DNA of 64,000 nucleotides from Phyllobacterium sp. OV277 (GTDB lineage: Bacteria; Pseudomonadota; Alphaproteobacteria; Rhizobiales; Rhizobiaceae), in contig NZ_FNIY01000002.1 in assembly GCF_900104355.1 (NCBI RefSeq), forward strand, positions 744,001 to 808,000. Direction: 5' to 3'. The position numbers and the translations under genes were made by a program. Each line of letters starts with the position of its first letter. Position 1 is the first letter of the stretch. Of the stretch, positions 35,984 through 43,294 are shown in pieces. The notes beneath the pieces are model-generated. The model had not been told where the DNA came from. It made no database searches and saw only the letters and a list, made by a program, of their open reading frames with translations.

Positions 35984-36945
35984 GCCCATGGGCCTTTGCG
36001 CGAGGAACCGTCACGGCCCCACGGGGAAGGCTCATCGTTTTCGGGTTCTTCCTGTGCCGGAGCAGCGGGCGTTGCCGTTGATTGTTCTGGAGCTGGGCGC
36101 TGGCGAAACTCGTCAACCATGGCCTCCAAGGCTGCAATACGGTTTTCCGTGCTCGGATGGGTCGAAAACAAATTGTCAGCTCCTTGGCCGCTCAGGGGAT
36201 TGATGATGAAAAGCGACGCGGAGGCCGGATTGCGCTCGGCTTCTTCATTGACGATCTGCTTTGCACCGCGCGCAATCTTGTTCAACGCCGATGCGAGCCA
36301 CAGGGGGTTGCCGCAAATTTCCGCACCGCGCCGGTCAGCGGAATATTCGCGCGTCCGGCTGATGGCCATCTGTACGATCATGGCGGCAAAGGGCGCAACG
36401 ATCATGGCAACGAGCGTGCCGATCATGCCAAGAGGATTATTGTTGCGGTTGCCGCCAAAGAACATGGCAAAATTGCCAAGCATGGAGATCGCTCCAGCAA
36501 GTGTGGCGGTGACGGTCATCGTCAGCGTATCCCTGTGTTCGACGTGAGCAAGCTCATGCGCCATGACAGCTGCGACTTCGTTGGGCGAAAGGCGATGCAA
36601 CAGGCCGGTTGATGCTGCAACAGCGGCGTTCTGCGGATTGCGCCCGGTGGCAAAAGCGTTCGGCTGATCATTTTCGATAAGATAGACGCGCGGCATGGGC
36701 AGGCCGGCGCGTGCAGCAAGGTCACGAACGATGCCGTAATATTCAGGAGCGTTGTTCTGGTCCACTTCAACGGCATTGTACATCCGCAGGACCATCTTGT
36801 CTGAGTTCCAGTAGCTGAAAAGGTTCATGCCTGTTGCAACAACGAGGGCAATCATCATGCCCGCCGTACCGCCAATGAGAAAGCCAACGCCCATAAACAA
36901 GGCGGTCATGAAGGCGAGCAGCATTCCAGTGCGCATGACATTCAT
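35980..36945 (-). CDS. htpX: Membrane metalloprotease HtpX
   Basis: 321-residue M48B zinc protease of the inner membrane that removes misfolded membrane proteins. The zinc motif is His130-Glu131-x-x-His134 in AHELAH; the third ligand is probably the Glu of [12 protein letters not shown]. Membrane helices lie at about 6-28, 30-45, 145-165 and 180-205. The C-terminal 45 residues are Pro/Glu-rich and variable. First gene of the htpX-rsmB pair. In many bacteria htpX is heat-shock controlled, but I see no convincing sigma-32 promoter here (upstream CTTGAT has no partner -10). Confidence 0.95.
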
Positions 36946-37060
36946 GGTTTCAATCTCCGCATTGTGAACATATCAGGTATCAAGATCATTCCTTTTGTTA
37001 GACATCTTCCGGTATATGATGGTGTTTCCTACAGCAAGCTTCAATGATGGACAGACCAGA

Positions 37061-37294
37061 ATGACCAGTAACCAGACATCAGGGACGCCGCAGGCCGACA
37101 ATACTGATCAAACGTCGCGCAAGCCTTTCGATCAACTGCCACCTGCTGCCCAGCGCGCATTGCTGGAAGCCGAGGCACGCCACAAGGCTGATCAGGAACA
37201 AGCCAGCCAGCCGCGGGAAATTGGCGGGCGCGGGGGCAAGGACCCAGCCCGTTTCGGCGATTGGGAAATCAAGGGACGGACCATCGATTTTTGA
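37061..37294 (+). CDS. DUF1674 protein, SdhAF4-like succinate dehydrogenase assembly factor
   Basis: 77-residue hydrophilic protein whose last 20 residues, GGKDPARFGDWEIKGRTIDF, match the DUF1674/SDHAF4 signature (GGxxPTRYGDWExKGxxxDF). In mitochondria SDHAF4 binds flavinylated SdhA before complex II assembly; the bacterial homologues are inferred to do the same. The N-terminal half is disordered. I use ATG 37061, 22 codons inside the longer frame. It lies between the divergent htpX and the convergent MATE gene. Confidence 0.8.
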   Translation: MTSNQTSGTPQADNTDQTSRKPFDQLPPAAQRALLEAEARHKADQEQASQPREIGGRGGKDPARFGDWEIKGRTIDF

Positions 37295-37313
37295 TTTGGT
37301 GGCACTTATTTGC

Positions 37314-38714
37314 CTAATGCCTGATAATCTCAATGCCCAGTTTTTCCCGGCGCAGCCAGCGGCTCATCAGCAATAGAGCGGCGGCGGCCAGGCCGGAAAG
37401 CAGGCCGAGCCAGATCCCCGCACCTTCCATTTTCAGCCAGAAGCCGAAAGCGACCGACAGCGGCAGACCGATGCCCCAATAGGCAATCGCTGCATAGATC
37501 ATCGGTATGGTTGTATCATGCAGGCCGCGCAACATGCCGCTGGCAACGGCCTGTGCTCCATCAAAAATCTGGAAAAGCGCGGCAAAGGCCAGAAAGGTCA
37601 CGGCAAGCGAAACAACAGGCGCATTGGCCGGATCATTGATATCAATGAATGCACGGATCAGCTGCAATGGAACGATGAGCATGAGCAGTGCCGTGAGCAC
37701 CATAAAGCCGGTACCTGCTGCAAATGCCACCCATCCCGCACGTTTGATGCCTTCCTTATCCTGTGCACCATAGGCGCGGCCGATGCGGACCGTTGCCGCC
37801 TGGCCGAATCCCAATGGCACCATGAAGGCTATCGAGGCGATCTGGATAGCGATGGCGTGGGCGGCCAGCGAATCCGGCCCAATAATACCCATCAGGAAGG
37901 CTGCGGCGTTGAAAATGGTCACTTCGAAACTTAGGATCGCGGCGATAGGCAAGCCGAGGCGCAGTAGTTCGCCATAGCGCGCCCAGTCTGCGCGCCAGAA
38001 GCGGCCGAACAGGTGGTACCGGCGAAATTGCCGATCCCGCAAAACGACAATGACCAGACCGATGAACATGAGGGCAGAGGAAAGCGTTGTGGCAATGCCC
38101 GAACCGACAATGCCGAGCTTCGGGAAACCGAGATTGCCAAAAATCAGGCACCAATTGGCGAAGGCGTTGAACAGAACGGCAAGAATGGCAATGACCAGCG
38201 CCCAGCCCGGACGTTGCAGAGCGGCGATAAATGAGCGAACCACGATATAGCAATAGAAGGGCAGCGCCGCCCATTGCAGCGCCCGCACATAGGCACCCGC
38301 TTCGGCGGCAAGCGCCGGGTCCTGTCCCATGGCTGTCAGAATAGTCTGTGTGTTCCAGAGCATGAACCAGATGGGAATGGAGATCGTGACGGCAATCCAA
38401 AGACCCTGCCGCACGGTCCGGCGGATTTCGCGAACGGTGTATTTATTGCGGCCAAGCTCGCGCGACATCATCGGAGATGTCGCGAGCATGAGACCCAGGC
38501 CGAAGATCATCGGGACATAATAAAGGTTGGTGCCAAGCGCTCCGGCAGCCAGCGTGTGCGGGCCCACCCAGCCCATCATCATGACATCAGTTGCCGTCAT
38601 GGCCGTTTGGGCCAGATTGGTCAGAATCATCGGCCAGCCCAAGGCCAGCATCGCAATAATTTCTTCACGCCATGCACGCTTCGGTGCTGCGTTTGGGGTC
38701 GATAGGGCGGACAT
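37314..38714 (-). CDS. MATE family efflux transporter (NorM-like)
   Basis: 466-residue, 12-helix cation-coupled drug/metabolite antiporter. The two pseudo-repeats begin with MILTNLAQTAMTATDVMMMGWVG and (second half) GLPIAAILSFEVTIFNAAAFLMG; PLGFGQAATVRIGRAYGA and IPMIYAAIAYWGIGLPLS are conserved NorM-type blocks. Start ATG 38714 fits the family; 26 upstream codons in the same frame are unlikely. The gene stands alone, convergent with the SdhAF4-like gene (19 bp between stops). Confidence 0.92.
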   Translation of the reverse strand: MSALSTPNAAPKRAWREEIIAMLALGWPMILTNLAQTAMTATDVMMMGWVGPHTLAAGALGTNLYYVPMIFGLGLMLATSPMMSRELGRNKYTVREIRRTVRQGLWIAVTISIPIWFMLWNTQTILTAMGQDPALAAEAGAYVRALQWAALPFYCYIVVRSFIAALQRPGWALVIAILAVLFNAFANWCLIFGNLGFPKLGIVGSGIATTLSSALMFIGLVIVVLRDRQFRRYHLFGRFWRADWARYGELLRLGLPIAAILSFEVTIFNAAAFLMGIIGPDSLAAHAIAIQIASIAFMVPLGFGQAATVRIGRAYGAQDKEGIKRAGWVAFAAGTGFMVLTALLMLIVPLQLIRAFIDINDPANAPVVSLAVTFLAFAALFQIFDGAQAVASGMLRGLHDTTIPMIYAAIAYWGIGLPLSVAFGFWLKMEGAGIWLGLLSGLAAAALLLMSRWLRREKLGIEIIRH

Positions 38715-38873
38715 TATGAGTCTTTCCGAGGAAAATTGCCTTTGATAAAGGCAAAGTGCACCATTTTCAGGCAGAAATCTTGGTATCACCAATTTTGGAA
38801 AGAGAAAAGTATTCGCAGATACAATCTGTCGTTGGTTTCACTTCGATCTTCCGTTGACTACAATTATCGCATA

Positions 38874-38902
38874 TTGACATTTCGTAATTTAAAAAATACA
38901 GT
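38874..38902 (+). promoter_or_regulatory. Sigma-70 promoter of the toxin-antitoxin operon
   Basis: TTGACA (38874-38879), a 17-bp spacer and TACAGT (38897-38902) directly upstream of the toxin ATG at 38907. The -10 box lies only 4 bp from the ATG, so the mRNA would be leaderless or nearly so, unless a TTGACT slightly upstream (38854-38859) is the real -35. Confidence 0.5.
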
Positions 38903-38906
38903 TTTA

Positions 38907-39221
38907 ATGCGAATTAAGCAGACTGATACCTATCGGGTATGGGAACGAAAACTTAGGGACGATAGAGCGAAAGCAGCAATTGCTGCTCGCTTATTTCGCT
39001 TGGTCAATAGTTTGATTGGTGACGTTTCATCGGTGAGCGAGGGCGTCTACGAATTGCGAATTCACTACGGACCTGGTTATCGGGTTTATTTCAAGCAATG
39101 CAGCGCGGAGCTTGTGATTTTATTGTGCGGTGGAAATAAGCGTACGCAGCAGCGGGACATACGCAAAGCGAAACTACTGGCCGCTGAATGGAAAAGTGAC
39201 AATGGCAACGAAGCTCTATGA
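38907..39221 (+). CDS. RelE/HigB-like toxin (HI1419 family)
   Basis: 104-residue protein of the phage-Gp49/HigB branch of the RelE superfamily: TYRVWERKLRDDRAKAAIAARLFRLVNSLIGDVSSVSEGVYELRIHYGPGYRVYFKQ in outline, ending with LLCGGNKRTQQRDIRKAKLLA. The WxxxLRDxxAKxxIxxRL and ELRIHYGPGYRVYF blocks define the upstrm_HI1419 family. It is expected to be a ribosome-dependent mRNase. The antitoxin gene overlaps it by 20 nt. The local DNA is AT-rich, suggesting an acquired module. Confidence 0.88.
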   Translation: MRIKQTDTYRVWERKLRDDRAKAAIAARLFRLVNSLIGDVSSVSEGVYELRIHYGPGYRVYFKQCSAELVILLCGGNKRTQQRDIRKAKLLAAEWKSDNGNEAL

Positions 39222-39489
39222 CTACGATCCGGCTGATGCTTTGAAATCGGATGACGCAGTAGAGGTGTTTCTGGCTGATGCGTTCGAAACGGGTGATGCC
39301 GGTTATATCGCCAAGGCTTTGGGTCTTGTAGCGCGCGCCAAAGGCATGACCAAAATTGCGCGGCAAACGGGTTTGGCGCGTGAGCAGCTCTATCGTTCAT
39401 TAAGCGAAAACGGAAACCCGACGCTTGAAACAACAATAGCGGTTATGAAGGCAGTAGGCTTTCAGATCACGGGAAAACGCGCTGCATAA
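39202..39489 (+). CDS. HigA-like antitoxin (HI1420 family)
   Basis: 95-residue helix-turn-helix protein: YDPADALKSDDAVEVFLADAFETGDAGYIAKALGLVARAKGMTKIARQTGLAREQLYRSLSENGNPTLETTIAVMKAVG in outline, named here by its family blocks (FLADAFETGD, KALGLVARAKGM, ARQTGLAREQLYRSLSE). These match the dnstrm_HI1420 antitoxins. It neutralises the upstream toxin and should repress the operon. ATG 39202 lies inside the toxin gene, so translation is coupled. Confidence 0.88.
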   Translation: MATKLYDYDPADALKSDDAVEVFLADAFETGDAGYIAKALGLVARAKGMTKIARQTGLAREQLYRSLSENGNPTLETTIAVMKAVGFQITGKRAA

Positions 39490-39490
39490 A

Positions 39491-39518
39491 TGGAAAGGGC
39501 CACCCCGAAGGGTGACCC
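39491..39518 (-). terminator. UUCG-tetraloop terminator of the small minus-strand unit
   Basis: On the minus strand, a 9-bp stem (39510-39518 with 39497-39505, one G-U pair) closed by a UUCG loop and followed by TTTCC. UUCG-capped stems are especially stable. On the plus strand the loop would be CGAA and the tail GTAATT, so the minus orientation is favoured. Confidence 0.65.
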
Positions 39519-39583
39519 CGTAATTCCGTCTGGCACAAAGCTGTCGTTTGGCCTTCTTACCCGGCGCGAGCCAGGGCGCTTAT

Positions 39584-39652
39584 TCAACGGAGAGATGATC
39601 CCCGATGGAAAGCATCAGACGCCTTGTGGCAGGTTGCGAAATCACGAGACAT
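39584..39652 (-). CDS. Candidate 22-residue small protein with a near-perfect ribosome binding site
   Basis: ATG 39652 opens a 22-codon frame (starting MSRDFATCHKASDAFHRGSS, ending LR). Its Shine-Dalgarno is AAAAGGAGGTGATC (39655-39668), complementary to almost the whole 16S rRNA 3' end, with 7 bases between AGGAGG and ATG. A second, overlapping frame (ATG at 39612, 11 codons) is seen. It lies between a sigma-32-like promoter and a strong terminator, so a transcript of about 190 nt is predicted. I recognise no homologue. It could be a true microprotein or a translated small RNA. Confidence 0.48.
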   Translation of the reverse strand: MSRDFATCHKASDAFHRGSSLR

Positions 39653-39689
39653 CAGATCACCTCCTTTTCATTCGTTGAACACAAGTTGA

Positions 39690-39718
39690 GAATGGGGTGT
39701 GTTGCGGGAAGTTTCAAG
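39690..39718 (-). promoter_or_regulatory. Sigma-32 (RpoH)-like promoter
   Basis: Minus-strand CTTGAAA (39712-39718), 14 bp, CCCCATTC (39690-39697). This differs from the E. coli sigma-32 consensus (CTTGAAA, 11-15 bp, CCCCATnT) at one position and equals CTTGAA-N17-CCATTC in the rhizobial notation. The predicted start lies about 30 bp before the 22-codon ORF. Confidence 0.6.
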
Positions 39719-39842
39719 AGAAAATTTTCAACCGCCATTTTTTGCTGCCTGTGAAAGTGCGTTGCCAGCGTGGAGCGAAGCGCATAGTTTCGGCCAAATC
39801 TCCGACACTGGTGTTTCGGAGCGTGATTGTTGGAGTTATTGA

Positions 39843-41108
39843 ATGGCGGCACAAGAGAGCGCGGCGCGGATCATCCGCACAGTGATAAACATGATGGAGC
39901 CGCAATTTGCCGTCGAATTATGGAATGGCGAACGTATTGGTGAAACAGATGGTCCGGTGCTTGCCATCAATGATCCGATGGCAGTGCGCCGCCTGGCGCT
40001 GAAACCCAATATCGGGTCGATCGTTGAACTGTGGATCTCAGGCCAGATCGATGTGAAGAACGGCACGCTGTTCGATCTCGTCGAGCGTGGTCCCAAAGGC
40101 AAATTCAAGCAGAAGCTGAAAACCCTGCCAAAATGGCAATTGCTGAAAGATGTCCCCGCATTGCTGCTGGGCGGTCGTGGGATGGATGCCTCCGGTCTCG
40201 ATGGCAAAAATCCGTTCGTCAGTGGTTCGAACAAGGAAGCAATTACCCATCACTATGATGTGTCGAATGCTTTCTATCAGCTCTTCCTTGATGATCGGAT
40301 GGTCTATACCTGCGCCTATTTCAAGGACTGGGCCAACAGCATCGATCAGGCGCAGGCTGACAAGCTGGATTTGATCTGTCGTAAGCTGCGGCTGCAGCCG
40401 GGAGATCGGCTTCTCGATATTGGCTGTGGCTGGGGCGCGATGCTGATCTATGCTGCCAAGCATTACGGCGTAACCGGTACAGGCGTGTCATTGTCTGAGG
40501 CACAAACGGCGCTGGCACGTGAACGCATCAAGGCGGAAGGTCTTGAAGACAAGATCACCATCCACGTCAAATCCTACGAGCATCTGGAAGGTCAATTCGA
40601 CAAGATTTCCTCCATCGGCATGTTCGAGGCGGTGGGCATCGCCCATTACGACACGTATTTCTCCAGCGTGCACCGTCTGCTGCGGCCGGGTGGGCTTTAT
40701 CTGCATCACGCAATCACCCGCCGTATGAAGCGCAACAAGAAGACGTTTGGCCGCAAGAGCGCCGAGCATCTTGCGCTGGTGAAGTATATTTTCCCGGGCG
40801 GTGAGCTTGATCATCTTGGCATGACCGTTGAAAACCTTGAGGGTTACGGTTTCGAGGTTCACGATGTGGAAAACCTGCGTGAGCATTATGGCAGGACCTG
40901 CCGTATCTGGGCGGATCGTCTGCATGCGCGGTTTGATGAAGCCATTGCCGAAGTCGGTGCGCCCAAGGCCCGGCTTTGGCTGCTTTACCTCACCGGCTGC
41001 GCGCTGGCCTTCGAGCGCGGAACCGTTCAGATCAACCAGACCCTTGCATCAAAGCGCAAGCGTGGGATTTCTGCGGTGCCACAGACAAGAGCCGATCTCT
41101 ATCGCTAG
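39843..41108 (+). CDS. cfa: Cyclopropane-fatty-acyl-phospholipid synthase family protein
   Basis: 421-residue SAM-dependent methyltransferase that adds a methylene or methyl group to unsaturated phospholipid acyl chains. The C-terminal domain (about 125-400) has ITHHYDVSNAFYQLFLDD, YTCAYFKDW, the SAM site LLDIGCGWGAMLIYAAKHYG, SLSEAQ and FDKISSIGMFEAVG, all typical of CFA synthases. The N-terminal 120 residues form the variable lipid-binding domain. The family also contains lipid methyltransferases of other specificity, so the exact product is not certain. A GGAG lies 9 bp before ATG 39843. Confidence 0.88.
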   Translation: MAAQESAARIIRTVINMMEPQFAVELWNGERIGETDGPVLAINDPMAVRRLALKPNIGSIVELWISGQIDVKNGTLFDLVERGPKGKFKQKLKTLPKWQLLKDVPALLLGGRGMDASGLDGKNPFVSGSNKEAITHHYDVSNAFYQLFLDDRMVYTCAYFKDWANSIDQAQADKLDLICRKLRLQPGDRLLDIGCGWGAMLIYAAKHYGVTGTGVSLSEAQTALARERIKAEGLEDKITIHVKSYEHLEGQFDKISSIGMFEAVGIAHYDTYFSSVHRLLRPGGLYLHHAITRRMKRNKKTFGRKSAEHLALVKYIFPGGELDHLGMTVENLEGYGFEVHDVENLREHYGRTCRIWADRLHARFDEAIAEVGAPKARLWLLYLTGCALAFERGTVQINQTLASKRKRGISAVPQTRADLYR

Positions 41109-41176
41109 AGATCGATTGCAATGGCGCTGTGTGGGGTTGGTGGGTCTGTTTGGACCGCTGCAGGACCATTCCTGCG

Positions 41177-41200
41177 CCCTTCGACAGGCTCAGGATGAGG
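41177..41200 (+). repeat. Intergenic repeat unit, copy 1
   Basis: CCCTTCGACAGGCTCAGGATGAGG, quoted in two parts as CCCTTCGACAGG and CTCAGGATGAGG. This TTCGACArGCTCAssAyGAGG type of sequence is a common dispersed intergenic repeat in Rhizobiales. It pairs with an inverted copy at 41281-41303. Confidence 0.65.
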
Positions 41201-41280
41201 GAGAGAGGGGACTGCAGGGAGCCAAGTTCTGCAACATTTGTGATCTGCAATCTCTGCGATGAGCGTTGCATCACTCAACT

Positions 41281-41303
41281 CCCTCGTGGTGAGCTTGTCG
41301 AAC
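41281..41303 (-). repeat. Intergenic repeat unit, copy 2 (inverted)
   Basis: The reverse complement reads GGTTCGACAAGC then TCACCACGAGGG, matching copy 1 at 17 of about 22 positions. The two copies face each other 80 bp apart between the convergent cfa and acs genes, so a transcript could form a long stem; a role in transcription termination or mRNA ends is possible. Confidence 0.62.
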
Positions 41304-41341
41304 CACGAACCACGAACCACACACGGTGTCTTTCAGCTTAA

Positions 41342-43294
41342 TCAGCCCTTTTTGTTCTGGCGGTTGGCGATCAGATCATCGACAACGGCTGGATCAGCAA
41401 GCGTCGAGGTATCGCCCAGTGAACCAAAATCGTCCTCGGCAATCTTGCGCAGGATGCGGCGCATGATCTTGCCGGAGCGCGTTTTGGGCAGGCCGGGCGC
41501 GAACTGGATTTTGTCGGGCGAGGCGATGGGGCCGATTTCCTTGCGGACATGCGCCACAAGCTCCTTGCGCAATTCGTCCGTGCCCTCAAGGCCCGCCATC
41601 AGCGTGACATAGCAATAGATGCCCTGTCCCTTGAGATCATGTGGATAGCCGACAACAGCTGCTTCCGAAACCGTGTCATGCGAGACGAGGGCCGACTCCA
41701 CCTCAGCGGTGCCCATGCGGTGACCCGATACGTTGAGCACGTCGTCAACCCGGCCGGTGATCCAGTAATAGCCATCCTTGTCACGGCGGCAGCCGTCACC
41801 GGTAAAATACTTGCCCTTATAGGTAGAGAAGTAAGCTTCGATGAAGCGCTTGTGATCGCCATAAAGCGTGCGCATCTGGCCGGGCCAGGAATCGGTGATG
41901 CAAAGATTGCCATCAGCGGCGCCTTCAAGCACATCGCCTTCATTGTCGACCAGCTGTGGCTGAACGCCAAAGAACGGCCGTGTGGCCGAACCGGGCTTGA
42001 GCGCAGTCGCACCGGGCAACGGTGTGATAAGAATACCGCCGGTTTCCGTCTGCCACCAGGTATCGACGATGGGGGAGCGTTTCTCACCGACCACCTGATA
42101 GTACCATTCCCATGCTTCCGGATTGATCGGCTCGCCGACCGAACCCAGAACACGCAGGGATTTGCGCGAGGTTTTCTTGACCGGCTCATCACCGGCACCC
42201 ATCAGAGCACGAAGTGCGGTAGGAGCGGTGTAGAAGATATTGACCTTGTGCTTGTCGATGACTTCCCAGAAGCGCGAATTGGTCGGATAGTTGGGAACAC
42301 CTTCGAACATCAGCGTGGTCGCGCCGTTGGCGAGCGGGCCATAGACAATGTAGGAGTGCCCCGTGACCCAGCCCACATCGGCCGTGCACCAGTAAATATC
42401 GCCGTCGTGATAATCGAAGACATATTGATGGGTCATCGAGGCATAGACGAGATAGCCGCCTGTTGTGTGCAAGACGCCCTTTGGCTTGCCCGTGGAACCG
42501 GAGGTGTAAAGGATGAAAAGCGGATCTTCCGCTTTCATCTTTTCCGGCTTGCACTCAGGCTTAACGCTGAGAATTTCCTCATGATACCAGAGGTCGCGGC
42601 CGGGCGCCCAGCTGGTCTTGCCGCCGGTGCGCCGGACGACCAGAACATTCTTCACCATCACATGGTGCTTGGCAGCGATGTCGATGGCCTTGTCGGTATT
42701 GTCCTTCAGCGGGATCGGTTTGCCACCGCGCATGCCCTCATCGGCGGTGAAGACAAAAGTGGATTCGCAATCGACGATGCGGCCTGCAAGAGCATCGGGT
42801 GAGAAGCCGCCGAAAACAACGGAATGAACAGCGCCAATACGCGCGCACGCCAGCATCGCATAGGTCGCTTCGACAATCATCGGCATATAGATTGTAACGC
42901 GGTCGCCTTTCTTCACGCCATGCTTTTTCAGCACATTGGCGAGGCGGCAGACCTGCTCGTACAGCTCGTTATAGGTGACCTTCTTGTCGAGATAGGGATT
43001 GTCGCCCTCCCAGATGATGGCGACCTGATCGCCGCGCTTCTTCAAATGGCGGTCGATGCAGTTGTAGGAGACGTTGGTCTGTCCATCCTCGAACCACTTG
43101 ATGGAAACCTTGCCTTCGAAGGAGGTGTTCTTGACCTTGGTGTAAGGCTTGAACCAGTCAATGCGCTTGCCGTACTTGCCCCAGAATTTCTCGGGGTCCT
43201 TGATGCTCTGTTTGTACCAGCTGAGATATGTTTCATTGTCGATAAGCGCGTTTTTCTTCGCGCTCGGCAGCACGGGATAGACCTTCTCGGACAT
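41342..43294 (-). CDS. acs: Acetyl-CoA synthetase (AMP-forming)
   Basis: 650-residue enzyme activating acetate to acetyl-CoA through acetyl-AMP. Core motifs: [19 protein letters not shown] (ATP-phosphate loop), the acetate-pocket WWQTETGG and [29 protein letters not shown] hinge region in outline, and the C-terminal [17 protein letters not shown], in which Lys609 is the conserved residue acetylated by Pat/GNAT enzymes and deacetylated by CobB. Length equals the E. coli enzyme (652). GGAGGAAATTG precedes ATG 43294. The gene is monocistronic. Confidence 0.97.

Follow-up and report, generated by a model that had tools for sequence, protein, structure and literature searches.

The minus strand of a 353-bp intergenic space in Phyllobacterium sp. 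OV277 appears to carry a complete small gene within about 230 bp. An initial annotation proposed that it encodes either a stress microprotein made on heat shock or a translated small RNA that titrates ribosomes. This raises the question as to which product, the peptide or the RNA, selection has maintained at this locus.

Layout and promoter of a small minus-strand gene

The window that we analyzed is a whole stretch of 64,000 nucleotides of this genome. Within it, the element sits between a convergent antitoxin gene (39130-39489, plus strand) and a divergent cfa gene (39843-41108, plus strand), and the space between these flanking open reading frames (39490-39842) has the length originally given. 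Four ordered signals had been described on the minus strand at 39491-39718, and all of them are present in that order and at the correct coordinates (Table 1). The ATG lies seven bases past AGGAGG and opens a 22-codon frame that runs to TGA, as had been read, and a terminator scan recovered the same 9-bp stem with its UUCG loop (arms 39518-39510 and 39505-39497, loop TTCG, minus strand). The Shine-Dalgarno sequence (SD), at first delimited as 39668-39655 (minus strand) and described as a 14-base match to the anti-SD, is indeed strong but shorter than claimed: its contiguous complement is 13 nt when measured against the alphaproteobacterial 16S 3' end ...GGATCACCTCCTTTCT of a Bradyrhizobium-type relative from another family (L297), and the first A of the original match stands opposite a C. 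A 16-base pattern for this rRNA 3' end, sought in nine genomes, matched one of them, which was not among the six Phyllobacterium assemblies covered.

The signals had also been judged unlikely to come together by chance. This holds for the SD core and the promoter pattern, both of which are rare: AAAGGAGGTGATC occurs once in the whole 5.33-Mb genome, and CTTGAA-N14-16-CCCCAT has a single match in the window, where 0.03 would be expected, and three matches genome-wide, with none for the backward controls. It does not hold for the terminator hairpin, which is not significant alone because shuffled sequences yield 0.9 such hairpins against the one found. No tRNA or tmRNA was detected within the window, the 22-amino-acid (aa) frame had no Pfam match, and an Rfam search of 36000-43000 at E values up to 1 returned no family besides CC2171. 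Taken together, the sequence and its conservation within the genus support a discrete small gene with a promoter, a strong SD, a short frame, and a terminator. We infer that its transcription starts at about 39681-39685 (minus strand).

Table 1. Features of the small gene, in window coordinates.
Feature	Coordinates	Strand	Basis or remark
-35 box CTTGAAA, RpoH-like	39718-39712	-	Sequence read; CTTG conserved upstream of the SD
Spacer between -35 and -10 boxes, 14 nt	Between 39712 and 39697	-	
-10 box CCCCATTC, RpoH-like	39697-39690	-	Sequence read, conservation, pattern count
Conserved 5' UTR motif GTGTTCAACGAA	39671-39682	-	Alignment of 16 of 22 Phyllobacterium rows; relatives
Extended SD AAAGGAGGTGATC, 13 nt complementary to the 16S 3' end	39655-39667	-	
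sORF, ATG at 39652, 22 codons, MSRDFATCHKASDAFHRGSSLR, TGA at 39586-39584	39584-39652	-	
Anti-SD mimic GGGATCATCTCTC at the end of the sORF, can pair with the SD	39590-39602	-	
3' UTR	39519-39583	-	Predicted partner of ORF codons 3-14 and predicted breaker of the SD:mimic pairing
Intrinsic terminator, 9-bp stem, UUCG loop, short T tract	39494-39518	-	
RF01867 (CC2171) match, whole model 1-159	39497-39677	-	Rfam, under the gathering score

For comparison, we assembled 293 rows (loci), from which five with an ORF longer than 40 aa (L097, L138, L170, L183, and L227) were removed before counting. Clade groups were defined by the first residues of the peptide and not by taxonomy. The 22 Phyllobacterium rows represent 20 genomes, two of them present twice, and the collection includes four identical pairs (L001/L056, L003/L114, L028/L082, and L118/L292); counts overstate independence because the rows are kin.

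The sigma-32 consensus for the -10 box is CCCCATNT, and CCCCATTC has one miss against it, in agreement with the earlier description of a sigma-32 promoter one base off the Escherichia coli consensus. CTTG stands 50 bases before the SD in all 22 Phyllobacterium rows and 48 to 52 bases before it in 51 of the 57 other Rhizobiaceae-type rows, usually as CTTGC; the chance of meeting CTTG anywhere within that upstream stretch is 10 to 12%. Counted anywhere in the stretch, it was present in 28/63 MSHC, 23/45 MSS-other, 19/38 other, 11/31 Sphingomonadales (in these mostly at other positions), 3/19 Rhodobacterales, and 0/13 Bradyrhizobium rows. The 16 Phyllobacterium loci that were aligned (of the 22 rows) share invariant CTTGAA and CCATTC boxes around a variable spacer. 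Across the 22 genus rows, the sigma-32 consensus matched at a mean of 11.9 of 14 positions against 7.9 in shuffles (standard deviation, 0.87), the RpoH1 consensus at 9.95 of 13 (shuffles, 7.5), the RpoH2 consensus at 8.2 of 13 (shuffles, 7.35), and the sigma-70 consensus at 8.05 of 12 (shuffles, 7.2). No E. coli-type sigma-70 promoter was found in 39400-39900.

The RpoH-type assignment is thus backed by conservation within the genus and by CTTGAA-N17-CCATAT at one of the two HSP20 genes in this genome. The groES gene of this genome has CTTGAC-N17-CTATCT, and the second HSP20 gene has no clear such pair at N17 spacing. Excerpts of published work give the rhizobial consensuses as CTTGAA-N15-16-CCTATAT for RpoH1 and CTTGCC-N15-16-CCTATCT for RpoH2 (PMC4843759) and describe an overlap of sigma-H with sigma-70 motifs in Sinorhizobium (PMC3616915). 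Bradyrhizobium promoters fit sigma-70 (10.5/12) and RpoH1 (10.5/13) equally, and the boxes of other clades are weaker or equally sigma-70-like. Judged from these motifs, RpoH control is likely in Phyllobacterium and is not a trait of the whole family.

Distribution and relatives of the element

Conservation in close relatives had been set as a check on the annotation, and it was found within the genus: blastn gave matches in 19 of 19 other Phyllobacterium genomes, in 5 of 15 genomes from other genera of the family, and in 0 of 24 genomes from the rest of the order. Across the order, 105 of 249 genomes contain the pattern GAAAGGAGGTGATCNNRTG, at 106 places in all, and its backward controls gave no match. 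AAAGGAGGTGATCNNRTGTC, allowing at most one mismatch, was present in 118 of 199 family genomes (119 places), with the backward control positive in 4 genomes, and was absent at one mismatch from the other 81. It seems likely that whole genera of the family have lost the element or diverged. Several of the family genomes without it are near-complete at 5 to 7 Mb, and others are small, at 1 to 1.6 Mb. A scan of titled contigs found at least 117 stretches; among the 80 matches listed, one, which has a long ORF, was clearly outside Alphaproteobacteria (L097, Candidatus Nealsonbacteria), and a few were unclassified.

Two genomes have additional sites. One member of the order (G393) has three GAAAGGAGGTGATC sites (contigs C126, C216, and C297), two of them without a start codon at the usual position. 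The second site of another genome (L227 in G446) has the same extended SD before a different ORF of 77 aa, which by eye looks like a small DNA-binding protein.

The genomic neighborhood is also conserved within the genus. In all 22 Phyllobacterium rows, cfa adjoins the element upstream in opposite orientation, and an in-frame synteny query for a MATE gene was positive in 22 of 22 rows. Among the 57 other Rhizobiaceae-type rows, cfa lies near the element in 16 (13 upstream and 3 downstream). The acs gene, 1.7 kb away beyond cfa in the window, is near the element in 31/57 Rhizobiaceae-type, 7/63 MSHC, 4/45 MSS-other, 2/38 other, and 2/22 Phyllobacterium rows, with differing flank lengths. This neighborhood supports vertical descent of the element within Rhizobiaceae; beyond that family, descent is judged from sequence.

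The Rfam match was to RF01867 (CC2171), at 32.7 bits and an E value of 0.00039, which is under the 75-bit gathering score. The alignment spans model positions 1-159, from the GAAAGGAGGUGAUC block through the terminal hairpin, uncut. The same model matched seven of seven loci tried (Bradyrhizobium, Dinoroseobacter, Sphingomonas, Mesorhizobium, Brevundimonas, another Phyllobacterium, and one more), five of which also scored under the cut-off; the Bradyrhizobium and Dinoroseobacter loci scored 43.6 and 40.0, respectively. Across the class, it matched 61 of 289 genomes, 9 of them above the cut-off, and in the named control genomes it matched 1 of 14, which was Caulobacter. CC2171, of Caulobacter, is typed by Rfam as an sRNA, whereas the element shows a conserved reading frame. 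According to excerpts of the respective reports, Rfam 15 added one covarying pair for CC2171 (PMC11701678), and MH_s33 of Mesorhizobium huakuii, assigned to RF01867 by its authors, measures 215 nt by RNA-seq (PMC5596092).

Among our rows, the Bradyrhizobium loci encode VSxxKRCHLAGIAR, 14 aa with a GTG start, and the Rhodobacterales loci encode VSRxxLExGVGT..., 18 aa. In a Bradyrhizobium-type genome, the SD (L204) complements the 16S end (L297) over 17 nt. Hahn et al. (2017, RNA Biol 14:1353) reportedly described rreB of Bradyrhizobium as a 165-nt mRNA with a 17-nt SD and a 14-aa frame starting with GTG, and rreR of the Rhodobacter-Roseobacter group as encoding 18 aa. Both reportedly bind 30S subunits and are weakly translated, with an effect of the start codon on RNA stability, and both were reportedly defined by at least 16 nt of complementarity to the 16S 3' end. 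Our 14-aa and 18-aa loci fit these descriptions.

Like rreB and rreR, the element seems to form its own small transcript with an extended SD directly before a tiny ORF, and its SD stands at a fixed short distance before an ATG or GTG sORF of at most a few tens of codons. It differs in its 13-nt SD match, which is under 16 nt, its ATG, its 22 codons, and its RpoH-like promoter. One covariance model matches all of the kinds tried, and acs recurs near the element in Rhizobiaceae-type and MSHC-type rows, whereas no neighbor in common with Bradyrhizobium or Rhodobacterales emerged; the element is probably of the same descent as the alphaproteobacterial CC2171/rreB-type small mRNAs. It is a relative of a known kind of small mRNA or sRNA, outside both of the formal cut-offs tested. 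The initial annotation had included neither this relation nor the anti-SD copy in the ORF described below. Excerpted literature on Bradyrhizobium and Sinorhizobium small genes, Caulobacter translation, and Staphylococcus extended SDs did not describe the element, and a literature search on rreB and 16S-mimic wording, with the text of Hahn et al. outside its scope, returned nothing on the anti-SD copy.

Reading frame and peptide

Start-codon counts in most rows are biased because the searches demanded RTG. One search was blind to the start codon and left out sites with A at base 22, to exclude rRNA. Its matches lay in 63 of 150 genomes, and 64 of the 67 places had RTG at the fixed position. Frame 0 is 14 to 31 codons long in 194 of 196 representatives (5-95% range, 18 to 27), one of the two exceptions being L102, which is cut by the locus end; adding back the five dropped long-ORF rows gives 194 of 201. 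Frames of this length occur in 44/196 representatives at +1, in 32/196 at +2, and in 28% of shuffles. One frame avoids early stops and has its stop near one place, and it therefore behaves like a translated frame.

The amino acids appear to be far less constrained. The pN/pS ratio of the sORF was 0.95 in Phyllobacterium (10 distinct ORFs), 0.96 in Rhizobiaceae (20), 0.87 in Rhodobacterales (19), 1.34 in Sphingomonadales (24), and 1.65 in Bradyrhizobium (8), with lower bootstrap bounds of 0.56 to 0.98 across the five clades. In 21-codon windows of neighboring genes, the median was 0.06 for cfa (maximum, 0.33; 18 windows), 0.17 for acs (maximum, 0.80; 30 windows), and 0.12 for the antitoxin gene (maximum, 1.15; 5 windows). 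Because an antitoxin window reached 1.15, one short window can mislead, five clades less so. Codon position 3 showed no excess of change (permutation P values of 0.44 to 0.89, eight sets). The proposed stress microprotein fares poorly in this codon-substitution analysis, in which no clade gave evidence of purifying selection on amino acids. These comparisons suggest that selection keeps ribosome binding and RNA folding, and not a tiny protein.

A copy of the 16S 3' end within the ORF and the explanations weighed

The last third of the ORF often copies the 16S 3' end, for example, as GGATCnnnGCCTCC (WILAS codons, at many loci). In six groups, 148 of 169 representatives pair the SD with the ORF end better than shuffles do on average (6/6 Phyllobacterium, 29/34 Rhizobiaceae-type, 39/51 MSHC-type, 30/33 other, 38/39 MSS-other, and 6/6 Bradyrhizobium), and the copy was not above shuffles in Sphingomonadales (8/14) or Rhodobacterales (5/12). 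Scrambled SDs paired equally well in 0.8 to 15% of trials for the six groups named first and in about 23% for Sphingomonadales and Rhodobacterales. Of 257 distinct ORFs, 78 contain GGATC, compared with 17.0 in shuffles (maximum, 26). The base that precedes this GGATC can form a Watson-Crick pair with the post-SD spacer base in 41 of 71 cases, against a permuted mean of 22.7 and a maximum of 35 in 10,000 permutations; with near-identical rows collapsed, the count is 24 of 45.

The register of this pairing is preserved in part of the collection. In 31 ungapped 25-codon ORFs from two groups, 84% of cells pair, and the share is 26 to 51% at slides of 1 to 5 and 66% at a slide of -6; the register is absent from 13 other 25-codon ORFs (39%). 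For 19 chosen Rhizobiaceae relatives, RNAalifold pairs the SD with the mimic unprompted, and sliding the partner in this alignment lowers pairing from 93% to 26 to 50%. Covariation in the SD helix is weak in the 19-row alignment (62 of 500 shuffles reach it) and unproven because the helix varies too little. Changes on both sides are seen in 18 of 53 consensus pairs, nearly all off the SD helix and mainly in the 3' half. By eye, L113, L029, and other MSHC-type loci have a second GAGG just past the anti-SD copy, which might fold with the copy into a small hairpin and be an alternative partner for it.

Folding predictions assign a role to the 3' UTR as well. For the RNA of the window, predicted SD:mimic pairing is 0.97 in the 5' UTR plus ORF and 0.13 at full length (0.44 with slightly different ends). 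The start codon is predicted to be 78% open at full length; the SD is not simply free, because just 39% of it is unpaired. Across six Phyllobacterium representatives, the mean paired share of the SD goes from 0.93 to 0.65 at full length, with L018 and L019 remaining paired (0.79 and 0.69). Shuffling the middle of the 3' UTR gave SD:ORF pairing of 0.82 versus 0.27 for the native sequence in Phyllobacterium (6/6), 0.43 versus 0.09 in Rhizobiaceae-type (18 of the 20 scored, out of 33), 0.44 versus 0.15 in MSHC (15 of the 20 scored, out of 49), and 0.42 versus 0.12 in Sphingomonadales (10/14) representatives. Two mixed groups showed the effect in about half (9 of the 20 scored, out of 30, and 10 of the 20 scored, out of 38), and there was none in Bradyrhizobium (0/6) or Rhodobacterales (0/12).

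With 45 nt after the stop, SD:ORF pairing was above the shuffle mean in 12/21 Rhizobiaceae-type, 13/39 MSHC, 15/30 other, 12/27 MSS-other, 0/4 Sphingomonadales, 4/10 Rhodobacterales, 3/3 Phyllobacterium, and 6/6 Bradyrhizobium representatives. Within the genus, compensatory changes are absent from the helix between ORF and 3' UTR, part of which is disrupted in two species. In these models, the 3' UTR is predicted to break the SD:mimic pairing of Phyllobacterium and of three further groups, an effect that is not predicted for Bradyrhizobium or Rhodobacterales. We also considered an RNA thermometer and rejected it, as SD:mimic pairing is near constant from 20 to 48°C (0.99 to 0.95 in the short RNA and 0.07 to 0.18 in the full-length RNA).

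We consider it probable that the element is a translated, self-regulated, structured small mRNA or sRNA of CC2171/rreB descent, with the peptide as a by-product. A stress microprotein gene, whose 22-aa peptide would itself be active and made on heat shock, would account for the strong SD, the start codon at a fixed place, the unbroken short frame in many clades, and the similarity of the peptide within one genus. We nevertheless regard it as quite improbable given a pN/pS near 1 in five clades, well above the cfa and acs medians, third codon positions that are not more variable, and peptides that share little across clades past their first residues. Somewhat less improbable, yet still unlikely, is a base-pairing sRNA with an incidental frame, whose SD-like and anti-SD-like stretches would bind 16S rRNA or mRNAs in trans. 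The sRNA typing of CC2171 and the two-sided changes in the 3' half among the 19 Rhizobiaceae relatives speak for it, as does the use of an anti-SD motif by the Caulobacter sRNAs SisA-D, reported in an excerpted study (PMC12559287); an untranslated RNA, however, would need neither a start codon held at constant spacing from the SD nor the absence of early stops from frame 0 alone.

That the signals came together by chance, or that the locus is a remnant without expression, might be argued from the terminator hairpin, which alone is not above chance, and from the family genomes without a match at one mismatch. This explanation is extremely improbable in the face of matches throughout the genus, a family-wide count far above that of the backward control, and promoter boxes that are conserved around a variable spacer. 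The translated small RNA that the annotation had offered as its alternative fits best. Our best reading disfavors the microprotein and favors a translated, structured, self-regulating small RNA.

If this translated small RNA works as we envisage, a stand-alone small gene would give rise to a structured RNA of about 190 nt, and 30S subunits would load at its SD and translate the short frame, leaving the peptide as a by-product. The anti-SD copy in the ORF could conceal the SD, and passing ribosomes or the ORF-pairing 3' UTR would undo the SD:mimic pairing, so that the RNA would respond to ribosome supply. With less support, an RpoH-type sigma factor may make the RNA, which may bind or sense free 30S subunits in stress. 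A more ambitious proposal, which we offer tentatively and consider rather doubtful as a whole, is a ribosome-supply sensor across Alphaproteobacteria: the SD and the copy of the 16S 3' end would lie in one RNA, the 3' UTR would compete for pairing with the ORF, refolding would be coupled to translation and to 30S binding, the peptide would be irrelevant, and a heat shock sigma factor would fire the gene in Phyllobacterium. If the SD, the anti-SD copy, and the 3' UTR do compete in this way, they would make a simple RNA that gauges the supply of free small subunits, possibly under heat shock control. The analysis links an RNA filed as an sRNA (CC2171) with the separately described small mRNAs rreB and rreR, and it offers a testable reason for why a tiny frame lasts long while its amino acids drift.

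A comparable arrangement exists in type I toxin mRNAs, in which an internal anti-SD stretch holds the SD and refolding or translation opens it. Excerpts of a report on such mRNAs with metastable folds describe an SD concealed by the structure of the mRNA itself (PMC6733600). The element differs in that its hiding stretch lies inside a short ORF with unconstrained amino acids, and it bears no sign of a toxin.

A two-gene unit at 38823-39489 (plus strand) converges on the small RNA. It comprises genes for a Gp49-like protein (PF05973, whose 23.8 bits fall slightly short of the 23.9 required) and for an HI1420-type addiction-module antidote protein (PF21716); of the 22 Phyllobacterium rows, 15 and 16, respectively, have these genes close to the element.
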